Assembly (NCBI GenBank): GCA_017415715.1
Contig: JAFQFD010000002.1
Span: 1 to 34,446, forward strand
Origin: Bacteroidales bacterium
GTDB lineage: Bacteria > Bacteroidota > Bacteroidia > Bacteroidales > UBA932
Length of the DNA: 34,446 nt
Direction of reading: 5' to 3'
Below are positions 14,744-30,182 of this stretch, one piece after another; positions within the stretch are counted from its first letter, which is position 1, and each line of letters starts with the position of its first letter. A program made the translations under genes and the position numbers. The notes beneath the pieces were generated by a model. That model saw only the letters and a program-made list of their open reading frames with translations, searched no databases and was not told where the DNA came from.

Positions 14744-15781
14744 ATGTCAAAGAAGGTATTGGTATCCGGAGGCGCCGGCTACATCGGCAGCCACGTAACG
14801 GTAGAACTCATTTCAGCAGGCTATGACGTAGTTGTAGCAGACAACATGTCAAACTGCGACATGACCTGTTTCGAAGGAGTAAAGAAGATCACAGGCAGAG
14901 AGGACATTCCTTTCTATCAGATCGACTGCTGCGACTATGCATCAGTTGACAAGGTGTTCACCGAGCACAAGATCGATGCTGTCATCCATTTCGCCGCATT
15001 CAAGGCAGTGGGCGAGTCTGTGGCAGAGCCTATCATGTACTACAGGAACAACCTCGTCTCATTCCTCAATATCCTCGAGGTCGCGAAGAACCATGGCGGC
15101 TGCAACGTCCTCTTCTCGTCATCGGCGACGGTATACGGAGAGGCAGAAGACCTCCCTGTGACCGAGCAGACTCCGCGCCTTCCGGCGACATCCCCATACG
15201 GCAACACCAAGCAGATGTGTGAAGACATACTTCGTGACGTAGTGGCCGCCACAGCCGCTTCGGAAGGCGTTGTCAAGGGCATCGCCCTCCGCTACTTCAA
15301 CCCGATCGGAGCCCATCCGTCAGCCCTCATAGGCGAACTTCCGAGAGGCGTTCCGAACAACCTGGTGCCTTTCATCACACAGACCGCGATCGGCAAGCGC
15401 GAGTGCCTGAGCATCTTCGGCAAGGACTATCCTACAGAGGACGGCACCTGCCTGCGTGACTACATCGACATCGTGGACCTCGCCAAGGCTCATGTGGCAG
15501 CAGTGTCACGCATGGTCGGCGGCAAGATGAAGGCAGGATACGAGATATTCAATGTCGGCACAGGCCGTCCTGTTTCAGTGTACGAACTCGTGACAGCATT
15601 CGAGAAAGTCAACGGACTGAAGCTCAACTACAAGTTCGTAGACCGCCGTCCGGGTGACGTCATGGCCATCTGGGCAGACACAACCCTCGCCAACGAAGAA
15701 CTCGGCTGGAAGGCGGAGCGCACCGTAGAGGAAACCCTCGCCTCGGCATGGGCATGGGAAAAGCACCTTGCGGGGAAATAG
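14744..15781 (+). CDS. galE: UDP-glucose 4-epimerase
   Basis: 345 residues, normal for the family. The extended SDR fold shows the NAD-binding 'GGAGYIGSH' (GxxGxxG at 9-15), 'FSSSATVYG', and the catalytic 'YGNTK' (Tyr152, Lys156), followed by 'ALRYFNPIGAHPS' and 'RDYIDIVDLAKAH'. GalE interconverts UDP-glucose and UDP-galactose, serving the Leland pathway and supply of galactose for surface glycans. It stands alone; its transcript probably ends at the first REP palindrome, which is followed by a T-rich stretch. Confidence 0.97.
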   Translation: MSKKVLVSGGAGYIGSHVTVELISAGYDVVVADNMSNCDMTCFEGVKKITGREDIPFYQIDCCDYASVDKVFTEHKIDAVIHFAAFKAVGESVAEPIMYYRNNLVSFLNILEVAKNHGGCNVLFSSSATVYGEAEDLPVTEQTPRLPATSPYGNTKQMCEDILRDVVAATAASEGVVKGIALRYFNPIGAHPSALIGELPRGVPNNLVPFITQTAIGKRECLSIFGKDYPTEDGTCLRDYIDIVDLAKAHVAAVSRMVGGKMKAGYEIFNVGTGRPVSVYELVTAFEKVNGLKLNYKFVDRRPGDVMAIWADTTLANEELGWKAERTVEETLASAWAWEKHLAGK

Positions 15782-15813
15782 TTCAGGAGCATCCTGCGAG
15801 GATTGTAATACGA

Positions 15814-15870
15814 CCCGTTGAGCGGCGGCATGTCCCACACGTGCAGATTCCCGCTCAACGGGTTGTTTTT
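15814..15870 (+). terminator. First REP palindrome acting as probable galE terminator
   Basis: The perfect 12-bp stem 15814-15825/15851-15862 is followed by TTGTTTTT (15863-15870), 33 bases after the galE stop. A REP unit used as a terminator is plausible but unproven. Confidence 0.5.
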
Positions 15871-16047
15871 GTGTCCCGTTGAGCGACCAGACCGGCTCCC
15901 CGCCCCGAATTCCCGCTCATCGGTCTTCCCATGCGCCCCGTTGAGCGACCAGACCGACTCCCAACCCCGAATTCCCGCTCATCGGTCTTCCCATGCGCCC
16001 CGTTGAGCGGTGGAGTGGGCATGGACCCACAATTTTCCGCTCAACGG
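15814..16047. repeat. REP array, left side: four palindromes downstream of the RAYT gene
   Basis: Left arms CCCGTTGAGCGG or CCCGTTGAGCGA lie at 15814-15825, 15875-15886, 15937-15948 and 15999-16010. Right arms CCGCTCAACGG(G) or CCCGCTCATCGG lie at 15851-15862, 15912-15923, 15974-15985 and 16037-16047. All have the same orientation with 25-26-nt loops. The middle two units are an exact-length 62-bp tandem duplication (15875-15936 and 15937-15998) differing at three bases, and both carry the same T-T mismatch (GTTGAG against CTCATC). The array ends five bases before the RAYT stop codon. Confidence 0.9.
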
Positions 16048-16052
16048 ACACA

Positions 16053-16931
16053 TCAGACAAAACCTTTCAGCAGTGATGCATCCAGATGCAGGATCCGACC
16101 TAACTGTTTATGTGTGGAAAGGTATTCGCTTTTCAGCCTTTTGGCCAGTCTTATCCTATCGTTGACTTTTAGTGATTGAATGTCAGAGGTCCCGAATGTT
16201 TTTTGTGCAAGGTCTGCAGCGATCTTTCTGAGCTCCTTGTCTGGCACGAAGCTCTTTTGCGACCGGGATATGCTGAGATCGACTTTGCCTTCAAGCTTTT
16301 TGGTCAGGAAATAGAGATATCTCGCAGGAGTCTTGAATAACTTCTCGATGGCCTCCAGATCAACGAAACACTCCGGCATGATCATACCATTATTGTTGAC
16401 AAGCCAGTCACCTGGCAGGCTGACCCTCGTTCTCAACAGATCCCGCAGTTCGTTCTCCGAGAAGTCTTTGATTTTCTTGCAGTTGGCCAGTCTTGTCTTG
16501 TTTGTCTTGAACATCAGCTGACATGATCCCCATGGATACTCCGATGGCAGACCCTTGAACCCGGCCATTATGGCATTTCTGTCTATATAGGTCGCTGTTT
16601 CGAGAATATCCTCCTCTGATTTCAAAGGTATGATGGATGTCGGAAGATGCTTCAGGTATTTGGGCACATTGTATTTGTGTGAAATCCATTTCCCTGTCAG
16701 CGTCTTGTATCTGTTGATAAATTTCAGGCACCTGGCATAAGTGCCATATAACAGAAAATGGGCATGATTGTCCATCAGGGAAAAAACCAGAACTATAGCT
16801 CCTGTCAAGATTTCACATACGCCGATCCGGTTGATTCCGTATGTGAAATCGTTATTGTCTTTGAACATCCATGACAAGGATGTACCATCAGTGCATACAT
16901 GGAAAAATCCACATTCATCATCAGTTTTCAT
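16053..16931 (-). CDS. REP-associated tyrosine transposase (RAYT, Y1/HUH family)
   Basis: 292 residues from ATG 16931. The HUH nuclease motif is 'MDNHAHFLL' (His56, His58) and the probable nucleophile is Tyr75 in 'KFINRYKTLTGKW'. N-terminal 'GFFHVCTDG' corresponds to the start of the Y1_Tnp fold ('YHVTxRG' in relatives). The C-terminal part (about 205-292: 'KELRKIAADLAQ', 'VNDRIRLAKRLKSEY', 'THKQLGRIL') looks like the DnaA-like helix-turn-helix seen in larger RAYTs. RAYTs bind and cut REP palindromes and are thought to spread them, and are normally single-copy and not mobile themselves. REP arrays lie on both sides, as expected. No IS-type end structure or second gene is present. It lies opposite to galE and the following genes. 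Confidence 0.88.
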   Translation of the reverse strand: MKTDDECGFFHVCTDGTSLSWMFKDNNDFTYGINRIGVCEILTGAIVLVFSLMDNHAHFLLYGTYARCLKFINRYKTLTGKWISHKYNVPKYLKHLPTSIIPLKSEEDILETATYIDRNAIMAGFKGLPSEYPWGSCQLMFKTNKTRLANCKKIKDFSENELRDLLRTRVSLPGDWLVNNNGMIMPECFVDLEAIEKLFKTPARYLYFLTKKLEGKVDLSISRSQKSFVPDKELRKIAADLAQKTFGTSDIQSLKVNDRIRLAKRLKSEYLSTHKQLGRILHLDASLLKGFV

Positions 16932-17066
16932 TCCGTCGCCTCTTTCTATTGATGATTTTGGTCTGTATGTCCATCTCCTCTCTCCATCTCCACCCAGACC
17001 ATATCAGTGGATGTTGAAGTGTCATGCAAAGATTGGCATTTGGGATCTTAAATCAAAATAAATTTG

Positions 17067-17176
17067 CCCGTTGAGCGGAAAAACTAGCTCGGAAGACCCT
17101 CCCGTCGCTCAACGGCCCTCAAAGGCAGCCCGTTGAGCGGCTGTGTGCGCCACAGTCCATGAATTCCGCTCAACGG
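17067..17176. repeat. REP array, right side: two palindromes upstream of the RAYT gene
   Basis: Left arms CCCGTTGAGCGG at 17067-17078 and 17129-17140 (again 62 bases apart); right arms CGCTCAACGG (ending 17115) and CCGCTCAACGG (17166-17176). Same orientation as the left array. The 135-base gap between the RAYT start codon and the first unit holds no gene that I can see. Loops differ from the left array, so the shared part is the stem. Confidence 0.88.
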
Positions 17177-17229
17177 CTTGCGGGAGGGTCGTGTTGCCTC
17201 GATTGTTTGAGAGGGTGGAGAATGAAATT

Positions 17230-17260
17230 CTTGTGGTGAATTAAATTTTTCCTATCTTTG
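17230..17260 (+). promoter_or_regulatory. Promoter of the 91-aa conserved protein gene
   Basis: CTTG (17230-17233, one base off TTTG), 19 bases, then TATCTTTG (17253-17260). The leader to ATG 17299 is about 33 nt. Confidence 0.6.
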
Positions 17261-17298
17261 TTCCCGTTATAACAAAAACCAAGTAATACGTATTAATT

Positions 17299-17574
17299 AT
17301 GAACCTCAGAGTTTTCAAAAAAGACATCGAGTATTTCGTAGCAGAATTCATTGATGACTGCGCACTCTTCGTAGCGCTTAACCCTCACAAGGATGCTGAC
17401 GAGATCGCACAGATAATCGACGAAGCTGTAGAGCTTTACAACAGCCTCAAGACAAGGGCTAACCACCCTGAAGGAAACAAGAAGGCTTTCTACAGAGGTC
17501 TCACACAGGAGATGTTCGAGAAGCTCGACGAGCTCTGCGAGAAGCTCAGCGCAGTAGTTTCAAAGCAGGAGTAA
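17299..17574 (+). CDS. Conserved small helical protein of unknown function
   Basis: 91 residues, acidic, predicted all-helical and cytosolic, with no signal peptide. It starts 'MNLRVFKKDIEYFVAEFIDDC' and has 'NPHKDADEIAQIIDEAVELYNSLKTR' in the middle. I recognise this pattern as a small protein common in Bacteroidota, but no function is known to me. It has its own promoter. Codon use is strongly biased to C/G-ending and GCA/GAG codons, suggesting good expression. It converges with the NlpC/P60 gene with an 18-base gap and no hairpin. Confidence 0.85.
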   Translation: MNLRVFKKDIEYFVAEFIDDCALFVALNPHKDADEIAQIIDEAVELYNSLKTRANHPEGNKKAFYRGLTQEMFEKLDELCEKLSAVVSKQE

Positions 17575-17592
17575 TCCTCTATTTGAAATATG

Positions 17593-18714
17593 CTAAAGAT
17601 TATAGGCCTTGCTCCTGGAGATGGGAGTGAGGCCTTCTCCTTTCCAGTCGAAGAGGCGGCGGGCCTTGAGGAGACGGTGTGAGTTCTCGTAGTAGTTCTT
17701 TGTGCCCGGGATGAGGGAGTTGACACGGACCAGGTGGGATGCGTGGATGATCTCTCCGTTTCCGATGTATATTCCTACATGAGTGATAGACTCCTTCTTC
17801 CATCTTGTTTCCGGGTTGCCGAAGAACACGAGGTCGCCCGGCTTGAGGTTGCGTGTCCTCTTGACCATTTCATCATACAGGTCAGGGGAGTCGGCCCCTA
17901 TGCTGTGGTTGGCGTCCACGATGATCTCTCTTCCCAGGAATACCTGCTGTGATGCATTTCGTGGCAGGAGGTAGCCGTTCATGAACCATGTCAGGCGTAC
18001 AAGGCCGCTGCAATCGAGCCCTTTGCTCGATGTGCCGCCCCATAGATATGGGGTGCCGACAAACTGCATGGCTGTGCTGATGATGCCTGCCTCCGACGGC
18101 TTCGGCTTCTCCATCCACTTAGCGAACTCCGCAAGGTCGGCTGCCGGCGTCCATCCGGTCCTCCCGTCCGGCAGGCGCACCTCGTTCCACTCCTTGGCTT
18201 CTCCGTTTCCGGCCCCTTTGGCTGCAGACGGCTTTTCACCCTTCTTCGTCTGGGTGAACACGATCCTCACCAGGTTGCCCATAGACATGTCAGATATCCT
18301 CTGCGATGCGGCCGACGGTTCGCTGTATACTGCGCTGTGATGCGCTGTGCATATGTATTTCGGTGCTGCCTTATACTCATTGATCTCCTCGGCGGTCATC
18401 TCGACAAGCCCGAGGTTGGTGCACCACGCTGTGTATGGCTCCGGCGTGACAACCTGCCTCCAATAGCGGTCCTCACCGATGATCTCAACGATGGTGCCCA
18501 TCAGCGACTGCGTCTCCAGCGCCGACTCATAGTCCGGCATGGCTCTCATCATATTCTCCGACAGCGCGGTCACCGCCATGCGCTTCCCGGCAGCCGGCTG
18601 CCCTGCGGCATCCCCCTGCCTGCTCTGCCCTGCGGCTCCCTGCCAGCTCTGTGCGTAAACTGCCTGTCCCGTAACCGCGAAAGCGATCGCCATATATGCT
18701 AGAAATCTTTTCAT
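17593..18714 (-). CDS. Secreted SH3-NlpC/P60 peptidoglycan hydrolase
   Basis: 373 residues from ATG 18714; a start at 18777 would add residues with no signal character. Residues 1-21 are a signal peptide ('AFAVTGQAVYAQ'), followed by a Gly/Gln/Ala-rich stretch (22-44) with repeated 'AGQ'. Two SH3-like domains (about 65-120 and 120-195, the second with 'WNEVRLPDGRTGWTP') precede the catalytic domain (205-373). The catalytic residues are Cys235 in 'GLDCSGLV', His312 in 'ITHVGIY' and His324 in 'IIHASH'. This layout matches gamma-D-Glu-diamino-acid endopeptidases that cut or recycle cell-wall stem peptides in the periplasm. It is divergent from the radical SAM gene. Confidence 0.93.
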   Translation of the reverse strand: MKRFLAYMAIAFAVTGQAVYAQSWQGAAGQSRQGDAAGQPAAGKRMAVTALSENMMRAMPDYESALETQSLMGTIVEIIGEDRYWRQVVTPEPYTAWCTNLGLVEMTAEEINEYKAAPKYICTAHHSAVYSEPSAASQRISDMSMGNLVRIVFTQTKKGEKPSAAKGAGNGEAKEWNEVRLPDGRTGWTPAADLAEFAKWMEKPKPSEAGIISTAMQFVGTPYLWGGTSSKGLDCSGLVRLTWFMNGYLLPRNASQQVFLGREIIVDANHSIGADSPDLYDEMVKRTRNLKPGDLVFFGNPETRWKKESITHVGIYIGNGEIIHASHLVRVNSLIPGTKNYYENSHRLLKARRLFDWKGEGLTPISRSKAYNL

Positions 18715-28835: not shown

Positions 28836-30056
28836 TTACTCGGCGTAGAGGGAAATGATGTTGAGGATCACCTCGCTGGCCTTCTCCATGCTCTGGAGAG
28901 GAATGTATTCCATCTTGCCGTGGAAGTTGTGTCCTCCTGCGAAGATGTTAGGGCATGGAAGTCCCATGAATGAGAGGTTGGCTCCGTCTGTACCTCCGCG
29001 GATAGGCTGCACCTTCGGAGTGATGCCTGCCATTTCGATAGCCTTCATGGCCTTCTCTACGATGTGGTAGTGAGGCTCCACCTGCTTGCGCATGTTGTAG
29101 TACTGGTGCTTTATCTCCACGGTGGCTGTGCCTTCGCCGTATTTTGCGTTGATGAAGTCCACGCACTGCTGCATGTATGCCTTCTTCTTCTCGTAGAGGT
29201 CCATGTCGTGGTCGCGGATGATGTATGAGAATGTAGCGCTCTCCACCTCGCCGCTGAAACTGATGAGGTGATAGAATCCTTCATATCCGCATGTGTATTC
29301 CGGCTTCTGCTCCACAGGGAGGAGGCTGTTGAGCTCCATTCCTATGAGGATGGCGTTCTTCATCTTGCCTTTTGCCGTGCCCGGGTGCACGTTGCAGCCT
29401 TGTATGCGGATTGTCGCTCCCGCAGCGTTGAAGTTCTCATACTCCAGCTCGCCGATCTGGCCACCGTCCATGGTGTATGCATACTTTGCTCCGAATTTCT
29501 CGACATCGAATTTCACCACGCCGCGTCCGATCTCCTCATCCGGAGTGAATCCTATCTTGATGTCTCCGTGCTTGAACTCAGGATGCTCGACGATATACTG
29601 CACGGCATTCATGATTTCGGCGATTCCGGCCTTGTCATCAGCTCCCAGGAGGGTTGTACCGTCTGTAGTGATGATGGTCTGGCCCTTGTAGTTCAGCAGT
29701 TCAGGGAACTCGCTCGGCTTCAGGCTCAGGCCCGGAACGCCCTTGAGCGGAATGTCTCCTCCGTCATAGTTCTCTATGATCTGAGGCTTTACATTGTCAC
29801 CCGGAGCGTCAGGGGCAGTGTCGGCATGTGCTATGAAACCCACAGCAGGCACGTCCTTTCCGCAGTTTGACGGAATGTTTGCCATCACATATCCCCACTG
29901 GTCAAGTGTGGCCTCGACGCCCATCGCAACGAGCTCGTCACGAAGCATCTTCAGCAGGTCAAGCTCTCTCGCCGCGCTGGGCTGTGTCTCTGATTCAGGA
30001 TCTGCCTTGGTGTCTACGGCAACATATCTGAGAAATCTATCTAAAATCTTTTCCAT
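28836..30056 (-). CDS. pepT: Peptidase T (tripeptide aminopeptidase)
   Basis: 406 residues, the family's usual length, from ATG 30056; an ATG at 30134 is too far upstream, inside a hairpin region. M20-family zinc peptidase: 'FIAHADTAPD' (His77, Asp79), 'LGADDKAGIAEIM' (Asp140 region) and 'DEEIGRG' (Glu174 catalytic, Glu175 zinc), with 'HNFHGKMEYIP' near the end. It removes the N-terminal residue of tripeptides in the cytosol and needs two zinc ions. Downstream of OPT transporter and ZupT genes on the same strand, but separated from zupT by 126 bases with three hairpins, so it may have its own promoter. Confidence 0.96.
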   Translation of the reverse strand: MEKILDRFLRYVAVDTKADPESETQPSAARELDLLKMLRDELVAMGVEATLDQWGYVMANIPSNCGKDVPAVGFIAHADTAPDAPGDNVKPQIIENYDGGDIPLKGVPGLSLKPSEFPELLNYKGQTIITTDGTTLLGADDKAGIAEIMNAVQYIVEHPEFKHGDIKIGFTPDEEIGRGVVKFDVEKFGAKYAYTMDGGQIGELEYENFNAAGATIRIQGCNVHPGTAKGKMKNAILIGMELNSLLPVEQKPEYTCGYEGFYHLISFSGEVESATFSYIIRDHDMDLYEKKKAYMQQCVDFINAKYGEGTATVEIKHQYYNMRKQVEPHYHIVEKAMKAIEMAGITPKVQPIRGGTDGANLSFMGLPCPNIFAGGHNFHGKMEYIPLQSMEKASEVILNIISLYAE

Positions 30057-30101
30057 ATCGTTGTGTTTATTATTTATCTCTGTTGTTATCCTTGTGTTCA
30101 T

Positions 30102-30177
30102 CCGTAAAATGCCCGTTTTTACGGATGGCACCAATGTTTTTGGTGCATTTGTCCGTAAAAAGGCTGTTTTTGCGGAC
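30102..30177. repeat. Three short hairpins in a row between zupT and pepT
   Basis: Stem 1: CCGTAAAA 30102-30109 with TTTTACGG 30117-30124. Stem 2: GCACCAA 30128-30134 with TTGGTGC 30140-30146. Stem 3: GTCCGTAAAAA 30151-30161 with TTTTTGCGGAC 30167-30177. Stems 1 and 3 share CCGTAAAA. They lie just after the zupT stop and before the pepT start (minus strand), so they may end or slow zupT transcription or shape the pepT leader. Confidence 0.65.
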
Positions 30178-30182
30178 GGGTG

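Follow-up and report, generated by a model that had tools for sequence, protein, structure and literature searches.

Long RAYT-like HUH/Y1 proteins and their regularly spaced, gene-specific palindromes in a genus of Bacteroidales

Overview

The window analysed here, a 34,446-nucleotide stretch of a Bacteroidales genome (contig JAFQFD010000002.1 of assembly GCA_017415715.1, positions 1 to 34,446), carries a gene for a transposase-like protein that resembles the RAYTs and is flanked by six copies of a palindrome. On balance, we think it probable that this gene is one member of a group of long RAYT-like HUH/Y1 proteins that has expanded in the genus and works with private palindromes. The argument is carried by the HUH/Y1 fold with its invariant catalytic residues, by the different palindrome words found beside different genes, by the dispersal of these words, and by a fixed arm spacing whose period clusters on the protein tree. 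The best reading, as judged from sequence comparison, would be that these RAYTs form a lineage which has an additional C-terminal domain and keeps up helically phased arrays of palindromes. There is more to the finding than was first noted. The regular lattice is its main feature, glimpsed in an earlier note on this DNA only as a "62-base spacing".

The gene and its flanking palindromes

The window protein has the fold of the REP (repetitive extragenic palindromic) transposases, together with the HUH motif and single catalytic tyrosine of a RAYT. The motif His56-x-His58, recognized in the earlier note, is invariant in all 54 aligned homologs, and so is Y115 (in YIDRN). The same note took Tyr75 to be the catalytic residue, which it is not: alignment column 75 has Y in 22 of the 54 homologs and F in 19, the remaining sequences differing from both. 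Where class 2 TnpA_Y1 proteins carry the signature Y---NP, the window protein reads YIDRNA; Y--RN[AG] is found in seven of the eight own-genome paralogs aligned, and Y--NNP in L018 only. The NCBIfam model REP_Tyr_transpos gives the window protein 14 bits against a cut-off of 80, while 36 of the 54 homologs match it at E<=0.01 (best 6.6e-13); in PHROGs and PADLOC the window protein has no match at E<=0.01. Among the matches listed in the genus genomes, a single RAYT-like gene has an internal stop, the genes being otherwise intact.

Four palindromes follow the stop codon (15814-16047) and two precede the start (17067-17176), the layout that had been claimed (Table 1). All six are present, though two have a mismatched right arm, CTCATCGG, and the 10-base arms are exact in four. 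The 62-base spacing of left arms was measured as 61, 62, 62 and then 62. The units had been described as sharing one orientation, but by their GGAAA/TTTCC edge the unit at 17067 is reversed. The window has 14 arms with at most one mismatch, of which 12 belong to the RAYT locus; 2.5 would be expected, and none of 100 shuffles reaches 14. The stem lacks a GTAG foot, as had been noted, and a search of positions 15000-18000 against Rfam gave no match.

Different genes, different words

RAYT matches at E<=0.001 are found in 52 of the 61 genomes of the genus (the window's own included), with up to 11 per genome. Our sample comprised 137 RAYT loci, made up of 8 from the own genome (G000) and 29 plus 100 stretches of genus matches, with the remaining matches left out. 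Palindromes were scored as 7-mer inverted pairs in flanks of 600 bp against 200 dinucleotide shuffles, with p<=0.01 taken as significant, and 61 of the 137 loci passed. Of the 119 loci whose flanks are complete, 51 have three or more pairs in the inner flank and one has them in the outer flank, which served as control. The 61 significant loci use 60 different 7-mer words. Sharing of a word declines as protein identity declines: it was seen in 5 of 10 locus pairs at 60% identity or more, in 3 of 47 at 50-60%, in none of 174 at 40-50%, in 1 of 245 at 30-40%, and in 4 of 1354 that are lower or have no long BLAST match.

Orthologs of the window gene were compared as well. From 39 loci in titled records, of which the near ones are mostly from ruminant-gut Bacteroidales, the nearest 18 (41-80% identity) were examined; the arm CGTTGAGC is present at least three times in 7 of the 8 with 54% identity or more and in none of the 10 with 53% or less, although these records are partly the same loci as in the genus genomes (L218 reads like L046) and not all are independent. 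Down to about 54% identity, orthologs keep the word. One ortholog locus, L216, has 11 units or more, several of which lie at intervals of 121 bp and have almost identical loops, so that they appear to have been amplified recently.

The diversity of words extends to a single cell. G000 (2.58 Mb, 86% complete) has eight RAYT matches at E<=1, to which a profile search adds one fragment and a ninth gene (C34:49924-50604) that only this search detects and whose flanks lie outside the flank reading. The gene is single-copy within its own specificity but not in the genome, with its total of about nine diverged paralogs; seven that were aligned are 18-33% identical to the window protein. By eye, every one of the eight with flanks read shows its own palindrome word. 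In the automated test four of these loci reach p<=0.01 and two lie at 0.02-0.025, while L014 and L017 fail; the words of these last two nevertheless recur in G000, with four pairs apiece, of which one for L014 is probably due to chance.

Dispersal of the words

Arm pairs of three words were counted in G000 and 11 other genomes of the genus against control patterns. The whole-genome search suggested in the earlier note finds the window word, CGTTGAGC, as 10 pairs in G000, four at the window locus and six at three other places, with none for the control. G021 has 22 pairs, G030 and G041 have one each with other spacings, and eight genomes have none (controls 0). As to the comparison of copy number with gene presence, also proposed there, the 22 pairs are in a genome with a 59% identical ortholog, and elsewhere there are single pairs (two genomes) or none (eight). 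The combination named there as grounds for giving up the REPtron idea, absence of the word elsewhere together with transposon ends or many gene copies, does not apply. Pairs of AAAAGCACA number 12 in G000, 6 in G021 (which has a 59% identical RAYT with this same word), 7 in G056, one each in G024 and G032, and none in seven genomes (controls 0). For GTGGACA the counts are 14 in G000, 2 in G056, one each in four genomes and none in six, the reversed patterns used as control giving up to 2. Overall, the three words have 10-14 pairs in G000 and mostly 0-2 in the 11 others, the exceptions being G021 and G056.

The gene is flanked by palindromes that are also dispersed in the genome, as expected of a RAYT. 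Dispersed copies are single units or arrays, and the arrays have the same period as at the RAYT. Their arms are depleted from open reading frames: 28 of 64 lie in frames of at least 110 amino acids, though such frames, which include spurious calls, cover 83% of those stretches. Isolated arms look like chance, with 4 of 27 exact arms lacking a partner (at L029, L041, L042 and L045) and one match for the reversed control. On contig C22 of G000 the window word forms units at 104768, 104830 and 104892, and the next position in register, 104954, is taken by the GTGGACA word; at this locus (L194, about 1031-1055) the arrays of two RAYT words appear fused, as if recombined at similar arms.

Array length also differs between close relatives. 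At a locus common to G000 and G026, with adjoining flanks 99% and 96% identical, G000 has three units and G026 one, a difference of exactly 102 bp or two periods that could be gain or loss; further upstream, some 430 bp of the neighbouring gene are missing from G026 as well. At another locus a window-word array has no counterpart in G026, the flanks there being only 68-71% identical.

Geometry of the arrays

The modal spacing of arms at the 61 significant loci is 51-53 in 35, 62-66 in three, 72-75 in nine and 81-85 in five; the remaining nine have 21, 22, 24, 38, 39, 54, 70, 122 and 125. With one vote per cluster, the lags concentrate at a period of 10.5 (p ~1e-6 for 29 clusters at 50% identity and ~1e-4 for 21 at 40%). 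When the 50-54 class is removed, p is ~0.044 (15 clusters, 50%) and ~0.056 (13 clusters, 40%), which weakens the case for helical phasing; the 20 loci with at least two supporting lags then give p ~0.01, and a period of 12 gives 0.01 and 0.03. Beyond the 50-54 class, helical phasing is suggestive only.

Within the window family, the 58 distinct units have loops of either 27/28 nt (34 units) or 39/40 nt (24 units) and none between. Because the linkers are 15-16 nt, the period is 61/62 or 72/73, and the step from one to the other is about one helical turn. Sets of units of several words, labelled A, A73, B (the AAAAGCACA word) and D (the GTGGACA word), differ in what is preserved: the interiors of A and D hold little sequence information at nearly fixed length, B and A73 preserve a small number of interior bases adjoining the arm, and the arrays at L073, L132 and L160 have well-conserved interiors, as would be expected had they been amplified recently.

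On a quick tree of the 61 RAYTs the period changes 19 times, against 33.3 when shuffled, with none of 200 shuffles as low. The rhythm thus follows the protein tree, while the word turns over. Of 28 RAYT loci from outside the genus, matched through the core domain, 9 show three pairs or more; 14 of the 28 gave any lag, and among the commonest lags listed a period of 51-53 appears for none.

Relation to known systems

The closest likeness is to the TnpA_REP/RAYT REPtrons of E. coli, Pseudomonas and Stenotrophomonas, which share the HUH/Y1 fold, the palindrome-flanked gene and the dispersed copies. Diverged genes with words of their own are a further parallel: genomes in which several TnpA_REP genes occur, with a separate REP family for each, are already described in PMC6006769. 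The systems differ in that there is no GTAG foot here (sets A, A73, B and D have no GT[AG]G beyond the arms, where a canonical REP has it 5' of the hairpin), the loops are long and of fixed length, and the period is near whole helical turns; in addition, the protein has a long C-terminal domain, and seven of eight own-genome paralogs have Y--RN[AG] where PMC6006769 gives Y---NP as the signature of class 2 TnpA_Y1. A canonical REP is a compact hairpin with a short or structured loop, which the units of the window family, with their loops of 27-40 nt that fold no better than shuffled ones, are not; the loops of other words go down to 14 nt. REP recognition has been shown to rely on the GTAG motif and hairpin features to a degree that varies between systems (PMC8266576), and RAYT-like genes flanked by non-REP inverted repeats are on record (PMC3733652).

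Two subclasses in PMC6006769 invite comparison. The Bacteroidetes TnpA_Y1 of subclass 2.6 (Bertels group 5) have atypical palindromes beside the gene and elsewhere and no GT[AG]G, but their median length is 179 amino acids against 292 here; RAYTs sampled outside the genus, of unassigned subclass, show no 51-53 bp lattice. Subclass 2.1 resembles our family in its long protein with an extra C-terminal domain (DnaA_C/HTH-like in 2.1.2), whereas the paper found no REP-like sequences for it and palindromes are present here.

Bacterial interspersed mosaic element (BIME) arrays and REPINs are alike in their alternating inverted arms, regular spacing and extragenic tendency. Their repeated unit is a sequence-conserved REP, whereas the A and D sets keep mainly arms and spacing. 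In the open-access literature that was searched (no preprints, most subscription journals missing) we found no report of phased palindrome lattices. The family shares the RAYT/REP core and layout and would work like such a system, but we do not file it in class 2 because the signature Y---NP fails, as do the features of a canonical REP. Of the functional, host-specific REP system envisaged in the earlier note, the RAYT and the dispersed palindromes stand and the identity as canonical REPs does not, the palindromes being structurally different; that the system is functional we infer.

Possible mechanism and alternative explanations

In the mechanism that we propose, the arms would be recognised by protein dimers, mostly in double-stranded form and from a single face of the helix. 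Arm binding and the setting of the spacing probably fall to the additional C-terminal helical domain, and the HUH/Y1 domain may nick and rejoin single-stranded copies during replication. Units would thereby be copied to new sites, and arrays would grow or shrink by whole units. Carried further, each long RAYT would be a helical ruler whose private palindrome is bound and replicated as a double-stranded, one-face lattice, and several paralogs would write parallel, mutually exclusive chromosomal addressing codes, the word evolving fast and the ruler slowly; we put this larger proposal forward tentatively, as more doubtful than probable. Observations in G056 weigh against a private code: the surroundings of its seven AAAAGCACA and two GTGGACA pairs (8 stretches) contain no RAYT-like open reading frame, and the GTGGACA word forms a true lattice at each of its two sites. 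The G056 assembly is 74% complete, and six of its nine RAYT matches are outside the sample, so that a matching RAYT could lie at a distance. The lattice units concerned (L302-L309) are possible orphan arrays.

The fold, the layout, the dispersed copies and the phylogenetic clustering of the period would also suit an ordinary REPtron, in which the RAYT cuts single-stranded hairpins whose stems are the arms, the arrays are BIME-like and the spacing is simply inherited from an ancestral array; atypical Bacteroidetes REPs are also known (PMC6006769). We regard this as a serious but rather unlikely alternative. Loops of the window family (27-40 nt) fold no better than shuffled loops (mean z -0.23 and -0.06), arm changes are compensated at 4 of 84 positions (A 0/33, A73 3/14, B 1/7, D 0/30, a few D rows being chance), the GT[AG]G foot is missing, and a hairpin leaves two exact loop sizes 12 nt apart unexplained. 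It is improbable that the proteins are domesticated regulators, with palindromes bound as operators or nucleoid sites and nothing mobilised any longer: regular site spacing, the C-terminal helical domain, low copy number and the intactness of the genes are in its favour, but H56, H58 and Y115 are invariant in every aligned homolog, the words occur at dispersed places, and the length of one array is not the same in close relatives. Selfish transposons of the IS200/IS605 type, with palindromes at their ends, are a very remote prospect, despite the HUH/Y1 kinship to IS200 transposases, given the divergence of the seven aligned paralogs and the palindromes dispersed without a gene; near-identical gene copies with terminal hairpins were not found, the nearest own-genome paralog being 33% identical.

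Two further candidates were set aside. Even spacing and variable interiors suggested a CRISPR-like array; no test aimed at CRISPRs was made, but the arms adjoin an HUH/Y1 gene and vary between genes. Integron attC sites carry R boxes (RYYYAAC/GTTRRRY) in all units; GTTRRRY fits the A word only, and the B and D lattices, with the same layout, lack it.

The host role of RAYTs and the way they read palindromes are open questions, with biochemistry available from few protein/REP pairs. The genus supplies about 60 natural protein/word pairs of regular geometry, several inside one cell, and its orthologs include both word persistence and word switching, so that recognition, specificity switching and the role of array spacing can be tested directly by experiment. 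The paralog set should be useful for learning how such transposases recognise and spread short DNA signals, and the phasing, if real, would mean that a family known for its chemistry on single strands also has a mode that is double-stranded and depends on spacing.

Other features of the window

Table 1. Positions of the gene and palindrome units in the window
Feature	Position	Strand	Details
Palindrome unit 1	15814..15862		loop 27
Palindrome unit 2	15875..15923		loop 28; right arm mutated to CTCATCGG
Palindrome unit 3	15937..15985		loop 28; right arm mutated
Palindrome unit 4	15999..16047		loop 28
Long RAYT-like HUH/Y1 protein	16053..16931	-	292 aa; C-terminal helical domain; H56, H58, Y115
Palindrome unit 5	17067..17115		loop 28; opposite edge polarity (GGAAAA on left)
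Palindrome unit 6	17129..17176		loop 27
TCCGTAA unit	30100..30127		word of the RAYT on contig C12, defined at L015; 51 bp before next unit
Second TCCGTAA unit	30151..30178		right arm changed (TTGCGGA)

The word of another paralog is also present in the window, as a two-unit TCCGTAA array with a period of 51 (30100-30178). It sits at the start of a putative peptidase gene, 28836-30134. The sequence GCGAAGC/GCTTCGC is dense beside arrays on contigs C22 and C33 of G000, with 8 matches in 2.0 kb at L194 and 10 in 1.6 kb at L198; the whole 34 kb window has six.
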